Of a DNA stretch of 64,000 bases, positions 6,040-53,680 are shown one piece after another. Source of the DNA: Bacillus sp. N1-1 (GTDB lineage Bacteria; Bacillota; Bacilli; Bacillales; Guptibacillaceae); assembly GCF_009818105.1 (NCBI RefSeq), contig NZ_CP046564.1, forward strand, positions 1,984,001-2,048,000, given 5' to 3'. The notes below the pieces were generated by a model that did no database searches, had not been told where the DNA came from, and saw nothing but the letters and a program-made list of their open reading frames with translations. Every line of letters starts with the position of its first letter. Within the stretch, counting starts at the first letter, position 1. The position numbers and the translations under genes are program-made.

Positions 6040-7137
6040 ATGAAGAAGAAGTACGGTTTTATGTTGTCAGCTGTATTAGCTGCTGGTACGCTTTTATCTG
6101 CTTGTGGGACAAATGAAGCGAACAATGAAAGTTCAGGCGGCGGGAGCAGTGAAGGTGAAAGCAACAACTTTAAAGTAGCTATGGTAACAGATACTGGCGG
6201 TGTAGATGATAAATCATTTAACCAATCTGCTTGGGAAGGTCTTCAGCAGTTTGGTAAAGATAATGGACTTGAGGAAGATAAAGGCTACAAATACGTGCAA
6301 TCCACTGCAGCAAGTGACTACCAACCAAACCTATCAGGTTTGATTCGTGAAGATTATAACTTGATCTTCGGTATTGGTTTCCTTATGCAGCAAGACATTC
6401 AAACGATTGCGACACAAAAGCCTGAAGCGCAGCTAGCACTTGTTGATAGTGTTGCGGTTAATGAGAATGATGAGCCGATGGAAAACGTTGCGAGCATTAC
6501 ATTTAAAGAGCATCAAGGATCATTCCTAGTGGGTGTTATTGCAGGGATGCAGTCTGAATCAAATAAAGTTGGCTTCATTGGTGGAGTTAACTCTGAATTA
6601 ATTAAAAAGTTTGAAAGTGGATTTAAAGCAGGAGTGAAATCGGTTAATCCGGATGCTGAGATTTTCACACAGTATGCAGATGATTTCAACGCAGCTGAAA
6701 AAGGCCAGCAAATTGCGGCAACTCTTTATGATAAAGGTGCGGATATCATTTATCACGCTGCTGGCGGAACAGGGAATGGCGTTTTCACAGAAGCGAAGAA
6801 CCGTGCGAAAAACGGAGAGAAAGTATGGGTAATCGGTGTTGACCGTGACCAGCATGAAGAAGGTATGCCTGAGAACGTAACGCTTACTTCTATGGTAAAG
6901 CGTGTTGATACAGCGGTTATTGAAGTTTCCAAGCAGACAATGGATGGTAACTTCCCTGGAGGACAAGTAACTGAATTTGGTCTTGAAGAAGACGGCATAG
7001 GTATTGCTGAAACACAGGAGAACGTTTCTGAAGAAGCACTACAAAAAGTAGAAGAGTATAAAGAGCAAATCCAGAGCGGCGAATTGGAAGTACCAAGCAC
7101 TGACGAAGAGTACGAAGATTTCGAGAGCTCTCTATAA
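6040..7137 (+). CDS. nupN: BMP-family nucleoside-binding lipoprotein
   Basis: Substrate-binding lipoprotein of a nucleoside ABC importer, anchored outside the membrane. The 365-aa protein has a lysine-rich signal peptide and lipobox LLSAC with acylated Cys22, a low-complexity Gly/Ser/Asn/Glu linker, then the Bmp fold (VAMVTDTGGVDDKSFNQSAWEG). ATG 6025 is possible, but GAGGGGG at 6027-6033 marks ATG 6040 as the start. Followed by the ATPase and two permeases, matching the B. subtilis nupNOPQ guanosine transporter; the exact nucleoside is not shown by sequence. Two hairpins separate it from the ATPase gene. Confidence 0.9.
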   Translation: MKKKYGFMLSAVLAAGTLLSACGTNEANNESSGGGSSEGESNNFKVAMVTDTGGVDDKSFNQSAWEGLQQFGKDNGLEEDKGYKYVQSTAASDYQPNLSGLIREDYNLIFGIGFLMQQDIQTIATQKPEAQLALVDSVAVNENDEPMENVASITFKEHQGSFLVGVIAGMQSESNKVGFIGGVNSELIKKFESGFKAGVKSVNPDAEIFTQYADDFNAAEKGQQIAATLYDKGADIIYHAAGGTGNGVFTEAKNRAKNGEKVWVIGVDRDQHEEGMPENVTLTSMVKRVDTAVIEVSKQTMDGNFPGGQVTEFGLEEDGIGIAETQENVSEEALQKVEEYKEQIQSGELEVPSTDEEYEDFESSL

Positions 7138-7139
7138 GG

Positions 7140-7177
7140 GATCGTCGAACACGTTTCCTCTAGCAGGAAAGGCGATC
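7140..7177 (+). other. Hairpin downstream of nupN
   Basis: Stem TTTCCT/AGGAAA with loop CTAGC, extended by imperfect GATCGTC/GGCGATC arms. No T run, so it more likely protects the 3' end of the lipoprotein message than terminates it (inference). Confidence 0.5.
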
Positions 7178-7217
7178 TACTGGAAATCTCACCTACATTA
7201 TAGCCAAATATGGGACG

Positions 7218-7250
7218 AAGGCTAGTATTTTCATAGACTAGCCTTTGTTT
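7218..7250 (+). terminator. Attenuating terminator between nupN and nupO
   Basis: Nine-base-pair stem AAGGCTAGT/ACTAGCCTT followed by TTGTTTC. A leaky terminator here would give more binding protein than transporter, common for ABC importers. Confidence 0.6.
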
Positions 7251-7279
7251 CATGTTTTGGATAAGGGAGTGGCATCTAC

Positions 7280-8809
7280 ATGGAATACGTCATTGAAATG
7301 AGGAATATCCGTAAAGAATTTCCTGGTATTGTTGCAAACGACAATATTACGCTTCAGCTAAGAAAAGGAGAAATCCATGCCCTTCTTGGAGAAAATGGCG
7401 CTGGGAAATCAACTTTAATGAACGTGCTATTTGGCCTCTATCAACCTGAAAAAGGTGAAATACACGTTCGAGGTAAAAAGGTAAATATCACAGATCCTAA
7501 TGTGGCAAATGAGCTTGGGATTGGGATGGTTCACCAGCACTTTATGCTTGTTGAAAAATTCACAGTTACTGAGAACATTATCTTAGGGAATGAACCGACT
7601 GCTAAAGGTCAGGTTGACGTTAAGAAAGCCGCAAAAGATGTTGAGGCGATTTCGAAGCAATATGGTTTGTCGGTAGATCCTAATGCAAAGATTGAAGATA
7701 TATCCGTAGGGATGCAGCAGCGTGTGGAAATTTTAAAAACGCTTTATCGCGGCGCAGATATTTTGATTTTTGATGAACCAACTGCTGTACTAACTCCACA
7801 GGAAATCAAAGAGCTTATAGCGATCATGAAAAAGCTGATTTCAGAAGGGAAATCAATTATTCTGATCACTCATAAATTAAAAGAAATTATGGAAGTAAGC
7901 GATCGATGTACCGTTATTCGTCGCGGTGTAGGTATCGGAACAGTGGATGTTGCAGACACGAATCAGGATGAACTAGCATCGATGATGGTCGGACGTGAAG
8001 TGAACTTTTCAATTCAGAAAAAACCTTCAGAGCCTTCCAATGAAACACTTGAAATTAGTAGTCTAGTCGTAGAAGATGCGCGAAAAGTTCCTGCTGTGAA
8101 TGGTATGAACTTATCGGTTCGTGCAGGTGAAATCGTTGGAATAGCAGGTGTCGATGGAAACGGACAGTCTGAGTTAATTGAGGCTATTACAGGCTTACGT
8201 AAAGCGAAGTCAGGGAGCGTTAAACTGAATGGAAAAGACGTAACAAACTGGAAGCCGCGACGTGTCACTGAAAGCGGTATAGGACATATTCCCCAGGACA
8301 GGCATAAGCACGGGCTTGTTTTAGATTTTTCGATTGGCGAAAATATGGTTCTTCAGACCTATTATAAAAGACCTTTCTCAAGAAATGGCATTTTAAACTT
8401 TTCTACTATTATGGATAAAGCTAAATCATTAATTAAAGAGTATGATGTGCGTACCCCAAGTGAGATGACACCTGCAAGGGCCCTTTCTGGTGGTAATCAG
8501 CAGAAGGCGATTATTGCGCGTGAAATCGATCGGAGTCCGAATCTATTGATTGCAGCTCAACCAACACGCGGGCTTGATGTTGGGGCGATTGAGTTTATTC
8601 ACTCGAAACTAGTTGAAGAGCGTGACAAAGGAAAAGCGGTTCTTTTGATTTCCTTTGAACTTGAAGAGATTATGAATGTAAGTGATCGGATCGCCGTGAT
8701 TTATGAAGGGAAAATTGTTGCCATTGTAAAGCCGGAAGAAACGACAGAGCAAGAGCTAGGTCTCTTAATGGCTGGCGCAAAGCGCAAAAAGGCTGGTGAG
8801 ACAACATGA
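7280..8809 (+). CDS. nupO: Nucleoside ABC transporter ATPase (double)
   Basis: A 509-aa protein with two fused ABC domains that drives the importer from the cytosolic face. First half: Walker A GENGAGKST near residue 37 and signature SVGMQQRVEIL. Second half: degenerate Walker A (GVDGNGQSE), signature LSGGNQQKAIIARE and the PTRGLDVGA Walker B region. This uneven pair is typical of BMP/ribose-type ATPases. Its stop overlaps the nupP start by 4 bases. Confidence 0.93.
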   Translation: MEYVIEMRNIRKEFPGIVANDNITLQLRKGEIHALLGENGAGKSTLMNVLFGLYQPEKGEIHVRGKKVNITDPNVANELGIGMVHQHFMLVEKFTVTENIILGNEPTAKGQVDVKKAAKDVEAISKQYGLSVDPNAKIEDISVGMQQRVEILKTLYRGADILIFDEPTAVLTPQEIKELIAIMKKLISEGKSIILITHKLKEIMEVSDRCTVIRRGVGIGTVDVADTNQDELASMMVGREVNFSIQKKPSEPSNETLEISSLVVEDARKVPAVNGMNLSVRAGEIVGIAGVDGNGQSELIEAITGLRKAKSGSVKLNGKDVTNWKPRRVTESGIGHIPQDRHKHGLVLDFSIGENMVLQTYYKRPFSRNGILNFSTIMDKAKSLIKEYDVRTPSEMTPARALSGGNQQKAIIAREIDRSPNLLIAAQPTRGLDVGAIEFIHSKLVEERDKGKAVLLISFELEEIMNVSDRIAVIYEGKIVAIVKPEETTEQELGLLMAGAKRKKAGETT

Positions 8810-41675: not shown

Positions 41676-42656
41676 CTAGGATGACATTTGTTGTTTTTCC
41701 ATATAATCGAAATAGCGTTTCAGTGTGAGATCGGCTTTTAATCCAAACTGCATGCGCAGCTGGTCGACGGAAAGATCATTTTCAATGGCTTTAATGACGC
41801 ATGTTCGTCTCATATGCTGAGCAGATACGCCTTTTCGCAAGCCGGCACGCTGAACTTCAAGGCGAATCATTTTTTGAATCGCGATTTCGGTTAGGCGCTT
41901 CGGGCGATCCACTTCATAACTCCAGCGATACGTTTGGCGCTGAAAATCAAATGAAACAAACAGCGGATCATCGCTATGCAGCCTTGGTCTAACGGGCGCG
42001 GGAATCGTATGATAATAATCGAACAAAATTTTCTTATGCTCAGGATTTAGATGAACGGTGCGTTTTCCGGAAGCCGAAGTGACGATTAGTTCATTTTGTT
42101 CGAAAGATAGATCTTTCATAGAAAGAGCAGATAGCTCTTGTAACGTTAAACCGTAATTGAGGAAAAGCCTGGCAATGATCAAATTCCGATCAATTAGAAA
42201 TTCGCGTGCTCTTAGCTGGTTGTCCGTTAAATCTTCAAGTGACACGATCGTCTCAAGAAGTTTTTGAGCTTCTTCTTCTTGGAGAAAATCTGTCTCGAGA
42301 TAACCGGCATCTTCATTCGTAGGTAGGACGACTTCTTTCATTGGATTGGTCTTTGTTCGATTTAACGACATATAATAACGATATACTTGATTTAGTACAG
42401 TCATAATTCTCTTTAATGTTCGTTCTGAATAGTGACGCTCAAGGTGCAAATAGCGAATATACTCCTGTAGCTGCTCCGTTGTTAGATTACGAAAGTTCTC
42501 GAAATCGACCTTTCGATGGAGAGTACGATGCCAGACGGTAAAATCAACGAGGTCATAGCGATAGCGCCGGAGTGTAGATGCCTTGCGTCCCTTTCGTTCG
42601 AGCGACTGCAGGTACGCTTCTAGAAAGTCTGGAAGCGGCTGATTAAAAAGCTCCAT
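41676..42656 (-). CDS. Degenerate tyrosine recombinase/integrase-like protein
   Basis: A 326-aa protein with an N-terminal SAM-like core-binding domain (DFLEAYLQSLERKGRKASTL...) and a C-terminal domain of XerC/D type. Several catalytic residues are changed: the first Arg region reads YGLTLQEL (Arg to Thr), the HxxR motif reads QHMR, and the LGH motif reads FGL, while the second Arg and a Tyr in LKRYFDY remain. It is therefore probably unable to recombine DNA and may only bind it. The upstream in-frame ATG at 42674 is rejected because GAGAGGTGATC precedes ATG 42656. Convergent with hfq. Confidence 0.8.
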   Translation of the reverse strand: MELFNQPLPDFLEAYLQSLERKGRKASTLRRYRYDLVDFTVWHRTLHRKVDFENFRNLTTEQLQEYIRYLHLERHYSERTLKRIMTVLNQVYRYYMSLNRTKTNPMKEVVLPTNEDAGYLETDFLQEEEAQKLLETIVSLEDLTDNQLRAREFLIDRNLIIARLFLNYGLTLQELSALSMKDLSFEQNELIVTSASGKRTVHLNPEHKKILFDYYHTIPAPVRPRLHSDDPLFVSFDFQRQTYRWSYEVDRPKRLTEIAIQKMIRLEVQRAGLRKGVSAQHMRRTCVIKAIENDLSVDQLRMQFGLKADLTLKRYFDYMEKQQMSS

Positions 42657-42784
42657 TCGATGATCACCTCTCATTTTGTTCTATTATAACAAAATCTGTG
42701 CGTGTCTTGTTTTACAATGGGTTACATGTTTTTGGGATAATTGGAAATACTATTGATAACCAAATCGTAAAGGAGCGGTTAGAC

Positions 42785-45688: not shown

Positions 45689-46957
45689 ATGTTTATGAAT
45701 TTTACCCATCAAGAAGAACTAAAAACACTATCACAGCAGGCTGAAGAAAAGATCCAGCCAGTTTTAAGAGAAATCGATGCGCGAGTTGAAGCGAATCAAT
45801 ACCGCGTTCTTGAGGCATTTCACAAAAATCGCATTAGCGACTTTCATTTCACACCATCTACAGGCTACGGCTATGACGATACGGGAAGAGATACGCTAGA
45901 ACAGCTTTATGCGGACGTATTCGGTGGAAACGCAGGACTCGTGAGACCTCAAATCGTCTCCGGTACACATGCGATTTCAACCGCACTTTTCGGCGTACTG
46001 CGTCCAAACGATGAGCTCCTTTATATTACGGGAGCGCCGTATGATACGTTAGAAGAAATTGTTGGAACGCGCGGCGAAGGCAAGGGATCGCTAAAGGATT
46101 TCCACATCGGCTATCAAGCCATTCCGTTAGCGAATGGAGCGGTAGATTTTGACGCTGTCGAGAGGGCCATCACCCCGCAAACGAAAATGATTGGGATTCA
46201 GCGCTCGAAAGGGTATGCAAATCGGCCATCTTTTACAATCGCAGAAATTAAAAAAATGATTGCTTTTGTTAAATCGATCAAAGAAGATGTGATTGTTTTC
46301 GTGGATAACTGTTACGGAGAGTTTGTTGAAGAGCAGGAGCCATGTCACGTTGGTGCAGATCTCATTGCAGGATCTTTAATTAAAAACCCTGGAGCAGGTA
46401 TCGTCAAAACTGGCGGTTACCTTGTAGGGAGAGAAGATTTAATTGAGCTTTGCGGCTATCGCTTAACGTCCCCTGGAATCGGAAGAGAAGTAGGTGCATC
46501 GCTTTATTCGTTACAGGAAATGTATCAAGGCATCTTTCTCGCACCACACACGGTTGGTCAAGCGGTCAAAGGCGCTGTCTATAGCTCAGCGCTCCTTGAA
46601 GAAGCAGGGTTCAACACAACACCTCACTGGAACAGCAAGCGAACCGACCTCATTCAATCGGTTCAGTTCGATGACAGAGAGCGAATGGTTGCGTTTTGTC
46701 AGGCGATTCAGGCGGCATCTCCGGTCAATGCACACGTTCGTCCTGAACCTGCCTATATGCCAGGATACGAGGATGATGTCATCATGGCAGCGGGAACGTT
46801 TATTCAAGGAGCTAGCCTTGAATTATCAGCTGACGGACCGTTAAGACCGCCTTACGTTGCGTACGTTCAAGGCGGCCTAACGTTTGAACACGTGAAAATC
46901 AGCGTCCTTCGTGCCGTTGATGATTTGTTGAAAAAAGGTTTGATTACTGTTTCATAA
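45689..46957 (+). CDS. ynbB: YnbB, PLP-dependent cystathionine beta-lyase-like protein
   Basis: A 422-aa fold-type I PLP enzyme of the group called aluminium-resistance or methionine-gamma-lyase-like proteins. Landmarks: STGYGYDDTGRDTLEQLYA, IVSGTHAISTALFGVLRP, VDNCYGEFVE, and the probable PLP Lys in SLIKNPGAG. Its reaction is not established. AGGAG site. In B. subtilis glnR follows; here a terminator and then glnA follow. Confidence 0.9.
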   Translation: MFMNFTHQEELKTLSQQAEEKIQPVLREIDARVEANQYRVLEAFHKNRISDFHFTPSTGYGYDDTGRDTLEQLYADVFGGNAGLVRPQIVSGTHAISTALFGVLRPNDELLYITGAPYDTLEEIVGTRGEGKGSLKDFHIGYQAIPLANGAVDFDAVERAITPQTKMIGIQRSKGYANRPSFTIAEIKKMIAFVKSIKEDVIVFVDNCYGEFVEEQEPCHVGADLIAGSLIKNPGAGIVKTGGYLVGREDLIELCGYRLTSPGIGREVGASLYSLQEMYQGIFLAPHTVGQAVKGAVYSSALLEEAGFNTTPHWNSKRTDLIQSVQFDDRERMVAFCQAIQAASPVNAHVRPEPAYMPGYEDDVIMAAGTFIQGASLELSADGPLRPPYVAYVQGGLTFEHVKISVLRAVDDLLKKGLITVS

Positions 46958-46962
46958 GGGTA

Positions 46963-46995
46963 AAAGGTAGGGATTTAAGTCCCTGCCTTTTTTTT
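46963..46995 (+). terminator. Terminator after ynbB
   Basis: Stem AAGGTAGGGA/TCCCTGCCTT with 6-base loop and a long T run. Confidence 0.9.
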
Positions 46996-47008
46996 ACGCG
47001 AAAAAGCA

Positions 47009-47045
47009 TGTGAGATTATCTCACGTACGTTAACACGGTAACGTA
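47009..47045 (+). promoter_or_regulatory. GlnR/TnrA-type operator(s) of glnA
   Basis: 47009-47025 (TGTGAGATTATCTCACG) fits the GlnR/TnrA site TGTNA-N7-TNACA at all but the last base and is a 15-bp palindrome. Next to it, TACGTTA (47026-47032) and TAACGTA (47039-47045) form a second palindrome with 6-base spacing. A TATGAT -10 candidate lies at 47056-47061. This suggests nitrogen control of glnA. Confidence 0.7.
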
Positions 47046-47234
47046 AACATTCGTGTATGATGAGAGTAAGTGAAGAAGGGAGCGGCAATTTCGAATGTTA
47101 ATGCGATTCTGAATTTTAGAATTGCTTGAAACTGTCCTCAAGTGGAGAGAGCAAAAGAGCGTGAAGACGTGAAGCACTCGGTTATCCAAAGCATTCACTA
47201 AATCTTTTTATTTCTTAAGGAGGATTCATTTTAC

Positions 47235-48572
47235 ATGGCGAACAAATTCACAGCAGACGATATTAAGAAAATGGCGCAGGACGAGAACGTTAAGTTCATT
47301 CGCTTGCAGTTTACTGACCTACTAGGGATTATTAAGAACGTTGAAATTCCAGTTGATCAGCTTGAGAAAGCTCTTGATAATAAAATGATGTTTGACGGTT
47401 CTTCGATCGAAGGTTTCGTACGCATCGAGGAATCCGATATGTATCTTTACCCGGATCTTGATTCATGGGTAGTCTTCCCATGGTCTTCTGAAAAAGGAAG
47501 AGTTGCTCGTCTTATTTGTGACATCTACAGCCCAGACGGCACGCCGTTCGAAGGGGATCCTCGTTCAGTTCTAAAACGCGTTCTAAAAGAAATGGAAGAG
47601 CTTGGCTTCTCTGACTTCAACATTGGACCAGAGCCAGAATTCTTCCTATTCAAAATGGACGAAAACGGTGAACCAACGCTTGAACTTAATGACAAAGGTG
47701 GATACTTCGACCTTGCGCCAACAGACCTTGGTGAAAACTGCCGTCGTGATATCGTTCTTGAGCTAGAAGACATGGGCTTTGAAATCGAAGCATCTCACCA
47801 TGAAGTAGCGCCAGGACAGCACGAAATTGACTTTAAATACGCTGATGCTCTTACAACGTGTGACAACATCCAGACGTTTAAGCTAGCAGTTAAAACAATT
47901 GCTCGTCAGCACGGTCTGCACGCAACGTTCATGCCAAAGCCACTTTTCGGTGTTAACGGATCTGGGATGCATGCGAACATGTCCCTCTTTAAAGATGGAG
48001 AAAATGCATTCTACGAGCCGAAAAATGAGATTGGTCTAAGCGAAACAGCACGTCAATTCATTGCTGGAACAATGAAGCATGCTGAAGCATTCACAGCGAT
48101 CACAAACCCAACAATTAACTCTTACAAGCGTCTAGTACCTGGATACGAAGCTCCTTGCTACGTAGCATGGTCTCTTCGTAACCGTAGCCCGCTTATCCGT
48201 GTTCCTGCTTCCCGCGGAATCAGCACACGTATCGAAGTACGTAGCGTAGATCCATCTGCGAACCCGTACCTTGCAATGGCAGCACTACTTGCAGCTGGAC
48301 TTGACGGCATCAAGAACAAAATGACGCCACCAGCGCCAACAGAGCGCAATATCTACGTGATGGATAAGCAAGAACGTGTAGAAGAAGGCATTACAGACCT
48401 TCCAGCAACACTACACGATGCGCTTGAACTTCTTAAGAAAGACGAAGTGATGATGAAAGCACTAGGCGAGCACGCAGCCGAGCACTTTATCGAAGCAAAA
48501 GAGATCGAATGGGATATGTTCCGTACGCAAGTACACCCTTGGGAACGCGAACAGTATATGACGACTTATTAA
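47235..48572 (+). CDS. glnA: Glutamine synthetase type I
   Basis: Makes glutamine from glutamate, ammonia and ATP. The 445-aa protein is of the GSI-alpha class (length, no adenylylation site loop): [88 protein letters not shown] site. Its last 18 codons are repeated 2.3 kb downstream, marking it as the insertion site of a mobile element; the reading frame here is intact. glnR is absent upstream. Confidence 0.97.
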
Positions 48573-48575
48573 GAT
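48517..48575 (+). repeat. Left attachment-like repeat in the glnA 3' end
   Basis: 59-base block covering the final glnA codons and stop; matches 50820-50878 at 58 of 59 positions (T at 48569 against C at 50872, silent in Tyr). Read as an att site of an element that inserted in glnA and restored its end. Confidence 0.85.
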
Positions 48576-48577
48576 CC

Positions 48578-48613
48578 AAACCCCTTGATACGACTAGTAT
48601 TAAGGGGTTTTTC
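48578..48613 (+). terminator. glnA terminator (proximal copy)
   Basis: Fourteen-pair stem starting AAACCCCTT and ending AAGGGGTTT, then TTTTTC. Clearly related to the terminator after the second glnA-end copy at 50885-50914. Confidence 0.9.
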
Positions 48614-48616
48614 TTA

Positions 48617-48692
48617 TTTTGGTCAAAAACACTTTTTTTTGTGAGTCGTTGTTTTGACCAAAAAAAGTTCAAAAAAAAAGGTTTTGACCAAA
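48617..48692. repeat. TTTTGACCAAA word cluster
   Basis: TTTTGGTCAAAA (48617-48628), TTTTGACCAAAA (48652-48663) and TTTTGACCAAA (48682-48692): the first two are exact inverted copies. A further copy is at 49973-49983, and GACCAAAA variants occur near 50699-50718. Possible integrase or excisionase arm-type sites. Confidence 0.6.
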
Positions 48693-48730
48693 TGATTAGA
48701 TTGGCCAAAATCACTTCAAAAGATTCTTCA
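48682..48730 (-). pseudogene. Tail of a second integrase gene
   Basis: Read on the minus strand, the last codons give MKNLLK-stop, followed by TTTTGGCCAATC and TTTGGTCAAAA. The same arrangement (MKNILK-stop and the same downstream words) ends the integrase at 49996. Upstream codons do not continue as an integrase, so only the extreme 3' end is left. Confidence 0.55.
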
Positions 48731-48880
48731 TTAATTCAGTCTTTTATAGAAATCTATAATAAATTACAATGATACATAAATTGCTTGTTTGCTTTATCAA
48801 AATGCTTCACCTGTAGGTTTAAACGACCATGAGATTATAATTAACGCAACAAAGATAGCACCCATATAATCAATATTCAG

Positions 48881-49663
48881 TTAAGGAGTTTTTTGCTGTT
48901 CAATTTGTATTCCTAAAGAGTGAAGTGCATCTTTAACAGTTGTCTTTGTGGGGATAGAGCTTAGTCTTGTATCAATCTGTGCGGCAATTGGTGCTAGTTC
49001 AGGTCTAATTCCTGTGAAAATAGGATGCACGCCAAGTAGTGATAGTACTCGATAAATTTGAAAGAGGTGTTTTGTAACAATATGGTCTAACGTGTAAATT
49101 CCAGAAAAATCAATGATTAAATATTGTATGTGTTTGTTTTGTACTTTAGTAGGGATGTCTTCTAAAAGCTGTCTAGCCCTTTCTTCATCAAATGAACCTA
49201 CCAAAGGAAGTACTCCAATACCGTTTAGAAGTGGAACAACTGTAGCAGATAATTCGTTTACTTGATTAATTATTTCTTTTTGTTTCTTTTCAGCATTTTT
49301 TCTTTCAGTTATATCCTTAACATAAGTCTGAATCGCTAAAATATCTCCTATTTGTACTGGATGACAATATAATTCCACATCGACTGTTGTACCATCAAGC
49401 CTATAAATTGTTTCTTCGATGACGTTGGCTGGTTCCATATATGCAGAATGTATTCTTTTTTCTATACTTGCCTTAGAACTTTCTTGGAATATATCTAAAG
49501 GACTAGCACCTATAAGATCTTCTTTTGAAGCTCTAAAAAACTCTTCTGCAACACGATTAATATCAATTATTCTAAGCTCTGAATGTATAATTAGCGGGTC
49601 AAGAGAAAAATCCATAATTTGACGGTAATCAATATCTTCTATTTTTTCTATCAAAATATTCAC
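48881..49663 (-). CDS. PAS-STAS domain stress-signalling protein
   Basis: A 260-aa cytosolic protein: PAS domain at residues 12-120 (LDPLIIHSELRIIDINRVAEEFF, PAC-like VKDITERKNAEKKQ), a short coiled linker, then a STAS domain (QYLIIDFSGIYTLDHIVTKHLF, GVHPIFTGIRPELA). This is the layout of RsbR/YtvA-type stressosome proteins. There is no LOV photoactive Cys motif, so light sensing is unlikely. In RsbRA two Thr are phosphorylated; the site in FTGIRPE is kept, while the earlier one reads LDHIV (His). Only complete gene in the island; unlinked to rsb genes here. Confidence 0.8.
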   Translation of the reverse strand: MNILIEKIEDIDYRQIMDFSLDPLIIHSELRIIDINRVAEEFFRASKEDLIGASPLDIFQESSKASIEKRIHSAYMEPANVIEETIYRLDGTTVDVELYCHPVQIGDILAIQTYVKDITERKNAEKKQKEIINQVNELSATVVPLLNGIGVLPLVGSFDEERARQLLEDIPTKVQNKHIQYLIIDFSGIYTLDHIVTKHLFQIYRVLSLLGVHPIFTGIRPELAPIAAQIDTRLSSIPTKTTVKDALHSLGIQIEQQKTP

Positions 49664-49995
49664 CTTCTAAAAGATTATTTTTATATTAAAGCTATATGTT
49701 TTACTACTTATATCCTACTAATATCGTAACAAAAATTTATGGTTCTATGGGACTACATTCAAAATTCCATATCTTAAATAAGAAAACTCCATACAATGTC
49801 TTCTACAGATTCAGATAAAATTTCTGCGTATTTCCCTATAGTTTGTCCAAGACTCTTTCCTTTCTTAAAATATAAGGAGGTGATATTTTTTGAGGACTTT
49901 TAAAGAGGCTTTTTCAAATCGTTTACTAAAACGGAAAAACAGAATGATGAATAATTTGTTATCAGATATGATTTTGACCAAAAGATTGGCCAAAA
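49664..49995. other. Island spacer with one possible short ORF
   Basis: AT-rich, with no gene I can support except a short TTG ORF at its right end. It contains the TTTTGACCAAA word at 49973-49983 and GATTGGCCAAAATCA at 49984-49998, repeated from 48696. Confidence 0.6.
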
Positions 49996-50063
49996 TCATT
50001 TCAAGATATTCTTCATGTATTCCTCGTATTTCTCTAGTGTATCTGTCTCGATTTTTTTACTAA
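49890..50063 (+). CDS. Possible truncated small ORF
   Basis: 57 codons from TTG 49890 behind a perfect AAGGAGGTGAT ribosome site (49874-49884). The first 25 residues (MRTFKEAFSNRLLKRKNRMM) look protein-like and basic, but from about 49970 the frame runs antisense through the integrase fragment, so the true 3' part was probably replaced. Best read as the 5' stub of a lost gene. Confidence 0.35.
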   Translation: MRTFKEAFSNRLLKRKNRMMNNLLSDMILTKRLAKIISRYSSCIPRISLVYLSRFFY

Positions 50064-50384
50064 CGTGTGCATAAACGTTTGATGTAATTTCCATACTTCC
50101 ATGACCTAACCGAGTCTGAACGTATTTCATATCTGCACCGGCTTCTAAAAGTAAAACAGCATGAGTATGGCGAAGAGAGTGAGGACCAGGTTCAAATCGT
50201 GGTGATAAATTTCATTAAGTGCTAATTTATTTTGATTCTGTTGTTTTTTATGAAAATGCAGATCATTAGTTAGACTCTTACTTATTGTAATTGTTCTCTT
50301 TGAATTAAAGGCTTTAGTGTCTCCAAACAACTCTCCTTTTGAACGTGCTTTGAAATCTAGAGTCTTATTAATAGTAATGGACAT
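49996..50384 (-). pseudogene. int: Tyrosine integrase catalytic-domain pseudogene
   Basis: Two pieces in different frames. 50190-50384 encodes FNSKRTITISKSLTNDLHF and KLALNEIYHHDLN, the middle of a phage/ICE integrase catalytic domain. From about 50181 down to the stop at 49996-49998 a second frame encodes HSLRHTHAVLLLEAGADMK, RLGHGSMEITSNVYAHV and a C-terminus ending MKNILK, with His/Arg, GH and Tyr catalytic motifs intact. Between them roughly 35-40 residues are deleted with a frame change, and the N-terminal half is missing altogether. Confidence 0.9.
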
Positions 50385-50419
50385 GACAAAATGCCAGTCA
50401 GTTGCTTTTACAATCTCAT

Positions 50420-50452
50420 AAAAAAGAGCCTATCTTTATTGCAGATAAGCTC
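50420..50452 (-). terminator. Terminator of the hydrolase fragment
   Basis: On the minus strand, GAGCTTATCT pairs with AGATAGGCTC around a 7-base loop and is followed by six T. Confidence 0.75.
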
Positions 50453-50481
50453 CGAGATCATCGAAGATCTTGATCGTTCAT

Positions 50482-50694
50482 TCAGTTCCTTAAAGAAACT
50501 GTTTCTCGAGCCTCTAAAGATGATTTGGTTAACTTCCTAATTTGTTCAGGTTGCTCAAGTATTGTCCAATGACCGCTTTCCTTCACTTCTACAAGTTCAG
50601 CATTCTTCAAGTGTTTCATTACATTTTTATCAATGAACCCCGGAGATAAGATATCGTGTGAGCCCTGAGCAATTAATATAGCAAGTTGAAAAAT
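50482..50694 (-). pseudogene. Alpha/beta-hydrolase C-terminal fragment
   Basis: About 70 open codons without a start, bounded upstream by an in-frame TGA. It encodes LAILIAQGSHDILSPGFIDK and VKESGHWTILEQPEQI: the acid (Asp of GSHD) and His (SGHW) of an alpha/beta-hydrolase triad and the usual final helix. The nucleophile half is gone. Its terminator survives downstream. Confidence 0.85.
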
Positions 50695-50819
50695 TCATGA
50701 CCAAAATTCAGACCAAAAAAAGTTAAAAAAGTACAATGATTTTTAAATGACGTATTTCCTAAACACTAATAAATATAGGTATTTAAAGCATGTTTAATAT
50801 CTATTTAAACCGTAAAATC

Positions 50820-50878
50820 TGTTCCGTACGCAAGTACACCCTTGGGAACGCGAACAGTATATGACGACTTACTAAGAT
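50820..50878 (+). repeat. Right attachment-like repeat (displaced glnA end)
   Basis: Second copy of the glnA 3' end, with no gene attached upstream; it still encodes the last 17 GlnA residues and TAA. Probably the original chromosomal end displaced by insertion. Confidence 0.85.
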
Positions 50879-50884
50879 AGAGAG

Positions 50885-50914
50885 AACCCCTTAACACAAT
50901 TGTGTTAAGGGGTT
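50885..50914 (+). terminator. Terminator after the displaced glnA end
   Basis: Perfect 30-bp palindrome (15-bp arms AACCCCTTAACACAA/TTGTGTTAAGGGGTT) followed by TTGTGTTG; likely the ancestral glnA terminator. Confidence 0.85.
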
Positions 50915-50999
50915 TTGTGTTGAAAAATCTAAGTATCATCCCATCATCCGAGCAGGGAGCGAGTACAATTTGAAAAAGGATAGGCACCTAAACAAGCAA

Positions 51000-51028
51000 T
51001 TGAGTCAATTGGAAATAAAGTATATTAT
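51000..51028 (+). promoter_or_regulatory. Possible sigma-A promoter of the sulfotransferase gene
   Basis: TTGAGT (51000-51005), 17-base spacer, TATTAT (51023-51028), about 80 bases before the start codon. Confidence 0.5.
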
Positions 51029-51108
51029 GACTGAAGTTAAAGGTTAAATGATTGAGATGGTTGAAAATTTTAAATCTACTATGCTTCTAATTGAAAAGAG
51101 GAGAAAAT

Positions 51109-51879
51109 TTGGATCAAGAGCTGCATCCTTTTATATTGAATACTATTCCTAAAAGTGGAACTCATTTATTGAAACAATTGTTACTTGGAATGAATCCCAA
51201 TGTCATCACAAATAATCCACATCATGTTTTATATGGGGCGCCGGAATTTAATAAAAACGAAGATATCGAGCGATTAAATCACATGGAAGCGAATCAATTT
51301 ATCCATGGCCACTTTTACTATATGCACTTCTGGAAAGATCTTTTTGATAAAAATGATTTGAAGCAAATTTTTTTAATTCGGGATTTGCGAGATATTGTCT
51401 TATCCTATAGTTATTTCATTGATAAACTACCAAATCATCCACTATTTAAATCCTTTTATGAAAATCAAACATCCACGCAGGATCGCTGTCTTACTCTAAT
51501 TAATGGAATGACTGATCCAAAGTTAAATTTAGTTTATCCTTCGATTGACACATGGTTTGGAAGCTTTCAAGGGTGGATGGAGTTGTCAAATGTCCTTACT
51601 GTCAAATATGAAGATCTTAATCCTTCGCATCCAGCGTGCGATGAAACCCTAGAAAGAATAATTGCATTTCTGTGGGAGGATGGGCCAATGCCAATGAATA
51701 AAGACGAGATGATCAAGCAAATGATTCAAAGTATAAATCCAAAAAGCTCTCCAACCTTTAGAAAAGGGAAATCAGGTGGATGGATGAATGAGTTTGATAA
51801 GCGATGTAAACATGCATTTAAAGAAAGAGCGGGACAGATCCTTATCGATTTAGGGTATGAACATGATATGGAGTGGTAG
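51109..51879 (+). CDS. Sulfotransferase-like protein
   Basis: A 256-aa cytosolic protein with three sulfotransferase landmarks: PKSGTHLL near residue 14 (5'-phosphosulfate loop), the RDLRDIVLSYSYF 3'-phosphate loop, and the C-terminal FRKGKSGGW motif matching RKGxxGxW. It should move sulfate from PAPS to a small acceptor, which is unknown. TTG 51109 follows a GAGGAG site; TTG 51091 lies upstream of that site. Single-gene unit between two terminators, immediately outside the glnA island. Such genes are uncommon in Bacillaceae, suggesting transfer. Confidence 0.82.
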   Translation: MDQELHPFILNTIPKSGTHLLKQLLLGMNPNVITNNPHHVLYGAPEFNKNEDIERLNHMEANQFIHGHFYYMHFWKDLFDKNDLKQIFLIRDLRDIVLSYSYFIDKLPNHPLFKSFYENQTSTQDRCLTLINGMTDPKLNLVYPSIDTWFGSFQGWMELSNVLTVKYEDLNPSHPACDETLERIIAFLWEDGPMPMNKDEMIKQMIQSINPKSSPTFRKGKSGGWMNEFDKRCKHAFKERAGQILIDLGYEHDMEW

Positions 51880-51941
51880 TGAGGAATCACTCAATGCTAC
51901 TCACAGGACTGGTTGGTTAGTATAACAACTAGATTAAAACG

Positions 51942-51988
51942 AAAAGCGACGAATCTTACATTAATGAAGTAAGATTTGTCGCTTTTTA
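51942..51988. terminator. Bidirectional terminator
   Basis: Eighteen-pair stem (AAAAGCGACGAATCTTAC with one G-U partner) around a 9-base loop, T run on the + side and A run on the other, so it can serve both the sulfotransferase gene and the convergent reductase gene. Confidence 0.88.
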
Positions 51989-52021
51989 TATGGCTGTACT
52001 GGCTACAGGTCGAATTCATTA

Positions 52022-53680
52022 TTATATCAAACTAGTTCTCTTAACCTGCTCATATGTTCGGTATCCGCCATCTAGATTAATTGCCTGAAACCCATTTTCC
52101 TTAAGGATGCGTGTAGCAATATAACCGCGAAACCCAACTTGACAATGTACAAAAATTGTTTGATTCTTCGGTAGTTCATGAAGGTGATTTCTTAATTGAT
52201 CAACTGGAAGATTAACAGCTCCTTTAATAAAACCATTATTAAACTCTGATGGGTTTCGCACGTCTATAAGCGTGCCGCCGTTTTCCGCGATCGCATCAAT
52301 CTCATGCCACTGAACGGTTTCCATCATGCCTTCGACGATATTACTCGCTACATATCCCGCCATATTCACTGGATCTTTCGCTGAAGAGTAAGGTGGGGCG
52401 TAGGCTAGTTCTAAGTCAGGTAGGTCGAGAACGGTTAAGCCTCCTTTAATCGCGGTGGCGATTACATCGATTCGCTTATCCACGCCATCCTTACCGACTG
52501 CTTGAGCACCGAAGATCTTTCCGGTTTCTTTATCAAAAATGAGCTTCAAGGCAATAGGGGAGGCGTTTGGATAATATCCGGCGTTTGAACCTGGATGAAC
52601 GTGCACGACTTCATAAGCAATGCAAAGGCTTTTTAAGGTTTTTTCATTATTACCGGTCGTAGCAACAGCATAGTCAAATACTTTGGCAATGGATGTTCCA
52701 AGTGTCCCTTTATACGGCGTTTTTTTGCCGTAAATGTTATCAGCAACGAGTCGTCCGTGTCTGTTTGCTGGCCATGCTAAAGGAATCATGGTTGGTTGCT
52801 TGTTAATATAACATGTTACTTCGATGGCATCGCCAATCGCATAAATGGAAGGATCGCTCGTTTGGAGGTATTCGTTTACTTGAATTCCGCCTCGTGTACC
52901 TACAGATAACCCGGCATGAACAGCTAGTTCATTTTCAGGGCGGACGCCGATTGACAAAATGATCAGATCTGTATCGATTTCTTTTCCGCTTACGGTGAGT
53001 ACTTTCGTTCCATTGTTTTCGAATGCCTGTACACCGTCATTTAAAATCAGGTTAATGCCTTTATCTTTAAGGTGCTGGTGAACGATTGTGGCCATTTCAT
53101 AATCGAGTGGTGGCATGATTTGATTTGCCATTTCAATCAGTGTGACGTTCATGCCAAGGTCGCTCAAGTTTTCTGCCATTTCAACCCCGATAAAGCCACC
53201 GCCCACGACAACAGCTTGGGATGGCTTCTCTTTATCAACATAAGCTTTGATCCGATCGGTATCAGGAATATTGCGAAGCGTAAAGAGTGTCTTTGCTTCG
53301 TTAAGACCGGGAATAGGTGGAACGATCGGACGGGCTCCTGGTGAAAGAATCAGTTGGTCATAAGTTTCCTCGTATGTTTGATCAGATTTTAAATCATGTA
53401 CAGAAATGGTTTTCTTTGCGCGATCAATTCGTGTTACTTCGCTCAAGGTACGAATATCAAAGTTATACCTTGCGGCCATGCTTTCTGGTGTTTGGACGAG
53501 TAGTTTCTTGCGGTCTTTAATCGTTCCACCTATATAATAAGGGAGCCCACAGTTGGCGTAAGAAATATACTCACCTTTATCAAACATGACAATCTCTGCC
53601 GTTTCATCTAATCTTCTTAAACGAGCCGCTGCTGTTGAGCCACCAGCTACGCCACCAACAATTACAATTTTCTTACTCAT
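52022..53680 (-). CDS. CoA-disulfide reductase with rhodanese domain
   Basis: A 552-aa FAD/NAD(P) oxidoreductase fused to a rhodanese. FAD motif GGVAGGSTAAARLRR at the N-terminus, single redox Cys in YANCGLPYYIGG (about residue 44), NAD motif VVGGGFIGVEMAE, FAD motif YAIGDAIEV, and a rhodanese domain from about residue 460 with catalytic Cys in VHCQVGFRG. CoADR-RHD enzymes reduce CoA disulfide or CoA persulfide and handle polysulfide. AAGGAG site. A CsoR/CstR-type palindrome overlaps the promoter, pointing to sulfide-responsive control. Confidence 0.92.
   Translation of the reverse strand: MSKKIVIVGGVAGGSTAAARLRRLDETAEIVMFDKGEYISYANCGLPYYIGGTIKDRKKLLVQTPESMAARYNFDIRTLSEVTRIDRAKKTISVHDLKSDQTYEETYDQLILSPGARPIVPPIPGLNEAKTLFTLRNIPDTDRIKAYVDKEKPSQAVVVGGGFIGVEMAENLSDLGMNVTLIEMANQIMPPLDYEMATIVHQHLKDKGINLILNDGVQAFENNGTKVLTVSGKEIDTDLIILSIGVRPENELAVHAGLSVGTRGGIQVNEYLQTSDPSIYAIGDAIEVTCYINKQPTMIPLAWPANRHGRLVADNIYGKKTPYKGTLGTSIAKVFDYAVATTGNNEKTLKSLCIAYEVVHVHPGSNAGYYPNASPIALKLIFDKETGKIFGAQAVGKDGVDKRIDVIATAIKGGLTVLDLPDLELAYAPPYSSAKDPVNMAGYVASNIVEGMMETVQWHEIDAIAENGGTLIDVRNPSEFNNGFIKGAVNLPVDQLRNHLHELPKNQTIFVHCQVGFRGYIATRILKENGFQAINLDGGYRTYEQVKRTSLI

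Follow-up and report, generated by a model that had tools for sequence, protein, structure and literature searches.

A putative prophage scar at the 3' end of glnA in Bacillus sp. N1-1 and the integrase family associated with this site in Bacilli

The doubled end of glnA

Why is the end of glnA, the gene of a central nitrogen-assimilation enzyme, present twice in the genome of Bacillus sp. N1-1? The window analysed here is a stretch of 64,000 nucleotides from this genome (NCBI RefSeq assembly GCF_009818105.1, contig NZ_CP046564.1, positions 1,984,001 to 2,048,000 of the forward strand), and coordinates below are positions in the window. A repeat search within it yielded a 62-nt direct repeat (48514-48575 and 50817-50878, 97% identical). 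The 59-bp block with the last GlnA codons that an earlier note, made from the sequence alone, had described as doubled is contained in this repeat, and its sole mismatch is TAT/TAC, both encoding Tyr. The sequence occurs at exactly two places in the whole 4.50-Mb genome, which rules out a chance repeat. Tyrosine integrases are known to insert elements at the 3' ends of conserved genes. The two copies are very probably attL and attR, the left and right attachment (att) sites of a temperate phage whose own tyrosine integrase would have inserted it at the 3' end of glnA; subsequent decay would have left a 2.3-kb scar. We read them so because prophages sit between the same copies in two congeners, other congeners have a single copy, and the flank of attR matches an empty site.

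In the proposed mechanism, an integrase with arm-binding, SAM-like and catalytic domains would join the phage site attP to the bacterial site attB. The attP core would copy the last GlnA codons, and its flanks would carry arm sites: about three direct ones in the P arm, and one inverted and two direct ones with an 11-bp period in the P' arm. Strand exchange would most likely occur near the codons for Trp-Glu-Arg-Glu. Following integration glnA would receive a phage-supplied end, and therefore stay whole, along with, in most cases, a phage-supplied terminator. Across Bacilli the integrase family would have kept the core site while the arm sites and the arm-binding domain changed together.

Genomes of the genus, which is Guptibacillus, were searched with a GlnA-end pattern open to synonymous codons. 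The pattern was found in all 14 of them, in one copy in 11 and in two copies in three, namely the window genome, G002 and G008 (G and L numbers are our labels for genomes and loci). The family-wide search covered 15 genomes; the sole addition, G014, had no match. In both G002 and G008 the copies lie approximately 38 kb apart, with a 380-aa integrase beside attL. The full elements and empty sites that the earlier note proposed to look for in relatives are thus both present, and the copies in the two-copy congeners enclose prophage-sized intervals. Ten proteins scanned in the G008 interval included a repressor-like protein, a terminase large subunit, a head protease, a major head protein, a tape measure protein, Dit and an endolysin. 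Hence packaging, head, tail and lysis genes are present between the att sites of G008, whereas none is left in the window. Sizes of open reading frames (ORFs) in the G002 interval run as in G008; this is a comparison of ORFs, the gene families being read in G008 alone.

Both sides of the scar have counterparts in these genomes. The first 50 bases 3' of the window attL, terminator included, are identical to the sequence after attL in G002 and G008. On the right, the predicted P arm and attR region (50691-50916) aligns with the right end of the G002 prophage at 74% identity across 240 bp, and the segment 50817-50921 shares 94% identity with the empty glnA site in G009. The attR flank of G008 matches the G005 flank, past a gap where the host hairpin is missing. 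The direct repeat of the gene end stands at both ends of the element, and the glnA reading frame in the window is intact.

Two further claims of the earlier note held in part. Terminators had been reported after both copies; a hairpin does follow each, but the terminator scan lists only that of the left copy. The interval between the copies is AT-rich, as had been stated, with a GC content of 0.28–0.35 vs 0.40–0.51 leftward, but GC stays at 0.31–0.38 right of the second copy up to about 52000, so that low GC by itself is no marker of the element's right end. No tRNA or known RNA was found as a target, either in the whole window or in 46000-52500.

Remnants inside the scar and its possible history

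The integrase remnants reported between the copies are real: they were matched to the intact integrase of the G008 prophage, and traces of two integrases, assigned here to elements A (left) and B (right), are present (Table 1). Compared with the G008 integrase, that of element B lacks the first 219 residues and a further 30 residues between its two pieces. The HxxR, H and Tyr motifs are present in the C-terminal piece, and this piece alone matches Pfam Phage_integrase. Close orthologs of the PAS-STAS gene, which lies between the two integrase traces, adjoin glnA only in G006 (85% identity) and G010 (73%). In G006 (locus L030) an integrase remnant, the PAS-STAS gene and a phage-type terminator after glnA accompany one att; G010 (L033) has the phage-type terminator after glnA, the PAS-STAS gene and one att, with no integrase match. 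Both look like further single-att scars. Other integrases of the genus, 29–35% identical, occupy seven places in five genomes, each either on a contig different from that of glnA or 280 kb or more away from it.

Given the traces of two integrases, the scar probably represents the remains of two related elements. These most likely once stood in tandem at glnA, and deletions would have taken the middle att and nearly all phage genes. The left element, comprising the integrase tail at 48698-48737 and the PAS-STAS gene, would be shared in part with G006 and G010, and the right one, starting from 49970, would closely resemble the phages of G008 and G002. Element A probably carried the PAS-STAS gene as cargo.

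Other histories were considered. Two near-identical copies would also result from a local duplication that made the second glnA end, with phage genes landing between the copies by chance, but no tandem unit turned up. Several features make a duplication highly improbable: the copy measures 59 bp, attL is followed by a phage terminator, phage-like sequence adjoins attR on its left and the G009 flank on its right, and two congeners show the same layout around their 38-kb prophages. Alternatively, the phage scar could derive from one element with an integrase end duplicated inside it instead of a tandem pair. The shortness of the second integrase tail (just 40 bp) and the missing middle att copy fit a single element; however, this tail shares 88% identity with the other one and 90% with the G006 remnant, which is likewise followed by the PAS-STAS gene, and tandem arrays at glnA are known in other genomes. 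We therefore consider a single element unlikely. That the PAS-STAS gene is a trapped or moved host gene rather than cargo is possible, though on the doubtful side: PAS-STAS proteins are common in Bacillus and more distant homologues (39–46%) are encoded elsewhere in five congeners, but close orthologs stand beside glnA only in three genomes with phage-type glnA terminators, and in two of these three integrase remnants adjoin the ortholog.

Table 1. Features at the glnA end in the window. Predicted features are marked as such.
Feature	Position	Strand	Evidence and remarks
glnA, type I glutamate--ammonia ligase	47235..48572	+	Intact 445-aa ORF; NCBIfam TIGR00653 above cut-off; last codons are the putative target site
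Putative attL, left copy of glnA end	48517..48575	+	59-bp direct repeat, one silent difference
Terminator-like hairpin, phage type	48578..48610	+	Terminator scan
Predicted P' arm sites	48619..48691		Inverted copy 48619-48625; direct copies 48655-48661 and 48685-48691 (TGACCAA); family-wide triads
First integrase (element A), 3' end only	48698..48737	-	88% identical to 49983-50022; 90% identical to G006 remnant L030
PAS-STAS gene, 260 aa, intact	48881..49663	-	Pfam STAS and PAS_4
Arm-like site beside second integrase remnant	49975..49982	+	TGACCAAA
Second integrase (element B), C-terminal 61 residues and stop	49996..50181	-	97% identical to G008 prophage integrase; PF00589
Element B integrase, further 70 residues, other frame	50178..50387	-	91% identical to G008 prophage integrase
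Fragment, possible alpha/beta hydrolase end	50485..50685	-	Pfam PF08386, E 0.008, below cut-off
Predicted P arm sites	50698..50718	+	Two direct copies of GACCAAAA
Putative attR, right copy of glnA end	50820..50878	+	59-bp direct repeat
Hairpin after attR, the host's own glnA terminator	50885..50916	+	Comparison with empty site of G009

Low-GC DNA at 50925-52021, located between the host glnA terminator and the gene that closely follows glnA in some congeners, contains a sulfotransferase-like gene (51091-51879, Pfam Sulfotransfer_1). The best matches to it elsewhere in the genus, found in 12 of 14 genomes, are about 43% identical and occupy different loci. This gene may have been inserted separately. 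Upstream, no ORF of at least 60 aa was found on the glnA strand between the preceding gene and glnA (46958-47234). In B. subtilis this position is occupied by glnR, and Guptibacillus may have no glnRA operon. A 332-aa minus-strand ORF at 41676-42674 reads, by eye, like another tyrosine recombinase.

The integrase family and its target

The G008 integrase matches PF00589, PF14659 and PF14657 (catalytic, SAM-like core-binding and arm-binding domains, respectively), all above cut-off, and the window keeps the catalytic part only. In an alignment of seven integrases R203, H319, R322, H345 and Y355 are invariant; we take them to be the catalytic Arg...HxxR...H...Tyr residues. The window fragment holds the last four only. 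No NCBIfam model reaches its cut-off for the integrase.

A profile of the seven integrases was compared with a species-level genome collection. In total, 115 relatives were confirmed and the best 80 kept, corresponding to 79 loci, placed by record title: 49 in Bacillaceae, 26 in Paenibacillaceae, two in Caryophanaceae, one in Guptibacillaceae and one unplaced, under 26 genus labels, one of them perhaps blank. In 75 of the 79 loci the strand opposite the integrase gene codes for the GlnA C-terminus past the integrase stop, and two more were recognised by eye (a divergent glutamine synthetase end in L138 and a GlnA end at the contig edge in L116). The C-terminus lies within about 250 bp of the integrase stop in 73 loci and 1.6–1.7 kb away in L079 and L137; the complete glnA frame is present in 67 of the 75. 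Related integrases do stand beside glnA, and together with the empty sites and full elements this supports the earlier note in reading the locus as a footprint of site-specific insertion that restored the glnA end; the two checks that the note had set out as refuting both fell in its favour.

Among 397 genomes drawn from the order, the family was found in 38 (23 of 135 genera) at 40 places with E 1e-90 or better. A GlnA end adjoins 39 of the 40 (20 and 17 by coordinates, two by eye), the exception being G382, on the contig of locus L124, with eight codons. This count and that of the 79 loci are not independent, since the order genomes overlap with the species collection. The GlnA-end pattern matched 134 of the 397 genomes, a lower bound for glnA because the pattern is strict. 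Two or three copies were found in 22 genomes; in five of these the copies fall on separate contigs, G021 being without listed positions. The earlier note took glnA to be an uncommon target. This does not hold in Bacilli, given the 38 genomes and two Macrococcus prophages in print (see below); with relatives of the integrase at glnA in dozens of species, this is a place where elements commonly dock and no rare target.

A sample of 398 genomes of the class contained five with an integrase of the type found in Staphylococcus phage PhiSepi-HH1; the five belong to a single family, which we take to be Staphylococcaceae from the host of this phage. Whole glnA stands alongside in four of the five. A quick maximum-likelihood tree of 45 rows placed 29 Bacillales-type and five staphylococcal glnA integrases on one side of a branch. 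The other side comprises 11 integrases with no GlnA end in the flanking DNA covered; for six of these the flank is about 50 bp, and the evidence is position. The last glnA codons are apparently conserved enough to serve as a landing site for one integrase family in Bacillaceae, Paenibacillaceae, Caryophanaceae, Guptibacillaceae and Staphylococcaceae.

Nine integrase relatives came from viral contigs, with a GlnA end in L072 only; at least two of these contigs, L067 and L068, break off at the integrase stop or a few bases from it. GlnA-like ends were found in 11 phage records and 10 plasmid records. Four of the plasmid records have an annotated glnA, the Listeria phage records are short and unannotated, and several of the other matches are weak (E above 1). 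A 33-kb circular plasmid of Bacillus glycinifermentans (NZ_MF996511, L180) carries an unannotated GlnA end with a terminator, and no integrase is annotated in the stretch viewed; this end could be the att site of an excised element. A decayed GlnA-like end is present in Priestia megaterium plasmid NZ_CP065214 (L181).

The position of the crossover was approached through 19 neighbouring att pairs from 16 genomes. The part of VHPWERE that runs from its His codon through its Arg codon has the fewest wobble differences between the members of a pair, which suggests a crossover in this stretch. Past the phage-side stop of GlnA, 57 of 75 loci have a terminator-like hairpin, compared with 19 of 750 shuffles; hence the element appears to supply the last GlnA codons and, mostly, the terminator. 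Tandem arrays at glnA were found in G193, G282 and G341, as well as in Domibacillus mangrovi and Paenibacillus ottowii. Small islands of about 2–11 kb lie between glnA ends in G282 (L167), G341 (L172), G193 (L164), G378 (L176), G190 (L162) and G344 (L173), some of them in arrays of three att copies.

Arm sites, tandem elements and known systems

Motifs of the GACCAAAA type are repeated near both ends of the scar. Across the family, 66 of 75 loci have a triad of 7-mers between this hairpin and the stop of the integrase gene: one copy is inverted, two are direct, and each deviates at one base at most. Perfect triads are present in 49 loci, a number reached by none of 50 shuffles of those loci. 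Under a CC-anchored definition triads were found in 63 loci, the period being 11 bp in 60 and 12 bp in three. Three direct copies often occur in the left flank of attR, and by the rule set in the script the P' motif of the same element occurs two or more times in the P arm at 11 of 14 simple sites. We predict from these arrangements that the repeats flanking the core are arm-type sites bound by the N-terminal domain of the integrase.

The arm motif varies among integrases (TGACCAA, CACCCAC, TGCCCAC, GTCCCCC, TGACCGG and others). For 47 full-length integrases, the distance between motifs correlates modestly with the distance between arm domains (r 0.29; partial correlation 0.25 given the catalytic domain, reached by none of 1000 permutations), whereas the correlation with the catalytic domain given the arm domain is −0.01. 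On the tree of the rest of the protein, with 45 of the 47 integrases labelled, the motif class, which depends on the register chosen, changed at least 20 times, a count made with no shuffled comparison. From this we infer that the core stayed on glnA while arm specificity changed repeatedly. Our guess is that changed arms keep tandem neighbours apart. Against this, the two elements of Paenibacillus ottowii have the same arms, and in the arrays of G282 and G341 the arms fail to match across an element.

Tentatively, and with somewhat less than an even chance of being right, we propose that one clan of Bacilli integrases locked its core onto the last glnA codons and diversified by rewriting the code of its arm sites. 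Phages and islands could then share one attB, sit in tandem and excise independently, and hosts would obtain GlnA ends and terminators from successive phages.

A number of observations weigh against parts of this account. Recombination is deduced here from comparing sequences, the crossover position is a statistical guess, and the integrase of the window is dead, so that activity can be read only from its relatives. The tandem history proposed for the window has the two integrase tails as its evidence. The window, G172 and G344 fail the P-arm rule, and in G172 and G344 the arms of the two ends mismatch; the P arm of the window was scored as one copy by the script's rule, though two copies of the motif are present. 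In arrays one of six cases passes this rule, and in a control with other motifs 65 of 322 do, the control being loose because motif registers differ. In locus L104 a transposase-like sequence (labelled by eye) stands where the GlnA end is expected. L124 (Bacillus xiamenensis, 7100-7327), at a contig edge, keeps only the last eight GlnA codons, behind unrelated sequence; perhaps it is an insertion at a secondary site, which would place the crossover near the Arg-Glu/Asp codons. Staphylococcal locus L208 shows no GlnA end, but there the contig breaks off roughly 200 bp past the match. Finally, the branch uniting the 34 glnA integrases has an SH-aLRT value of 93 and is not starred.

Two uses follow from these results. 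The end of glnA is a fixed locus at which prophages, islands and scars can be sought in Bacilli genomes. Moreover, the family offers a natural series of integrases with a constant core site and only the arm code varying, which makes arm-site recognition and the insulation of tandem prophages directly testable.

The literature searched by full text, with subscription papers mostly outside it, yielded no account of an integrase family at glnA, of its range or of its arm code. A 2022 paper in Environmental Microbiology on SPbeta-like prophages reportedly names further integration loci and might contain glnA. Among isolated phages, Bacillus phage SPbetaL5 (OQ921345) encodes a 57% identical integrase beside a GlnA end with the same ending; it differs in being a 127-kb SPbeta-like phage, and the integrase is labelled as a hypothetical protein in the record. 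The available part of a review on SPbeta (PMC8270828) gives spsM, kamA and an intergenic site, with glnA unmentioned there. The integrase of PhiSepi-HH1 (MT880870) is 38% identical, and this phage also shows arm-like repeats of the TTGCCCA type and a GlnA-like end, but the latter lies 3.2 kb inside the right end of the record; no integration site is named in the accessible part of its paper (PMC7891712). Two Macrococcus prophages, likewise in a member of Bacilli, are located 'downstream of the glnA gene' (PMC12016501). The available text gives them one sentence, with no att site, integrase family, range or arm sites, and the likeness to the elements described here is one of position. The dusA integrase family, as far as the accessible part of its description goes, is likewise tied to one conserved protein-coding gene and comprises both prophages and islands; it uses the 5' end of dusA, in contrast to the 3' end of glnA used here (PMC4482086).

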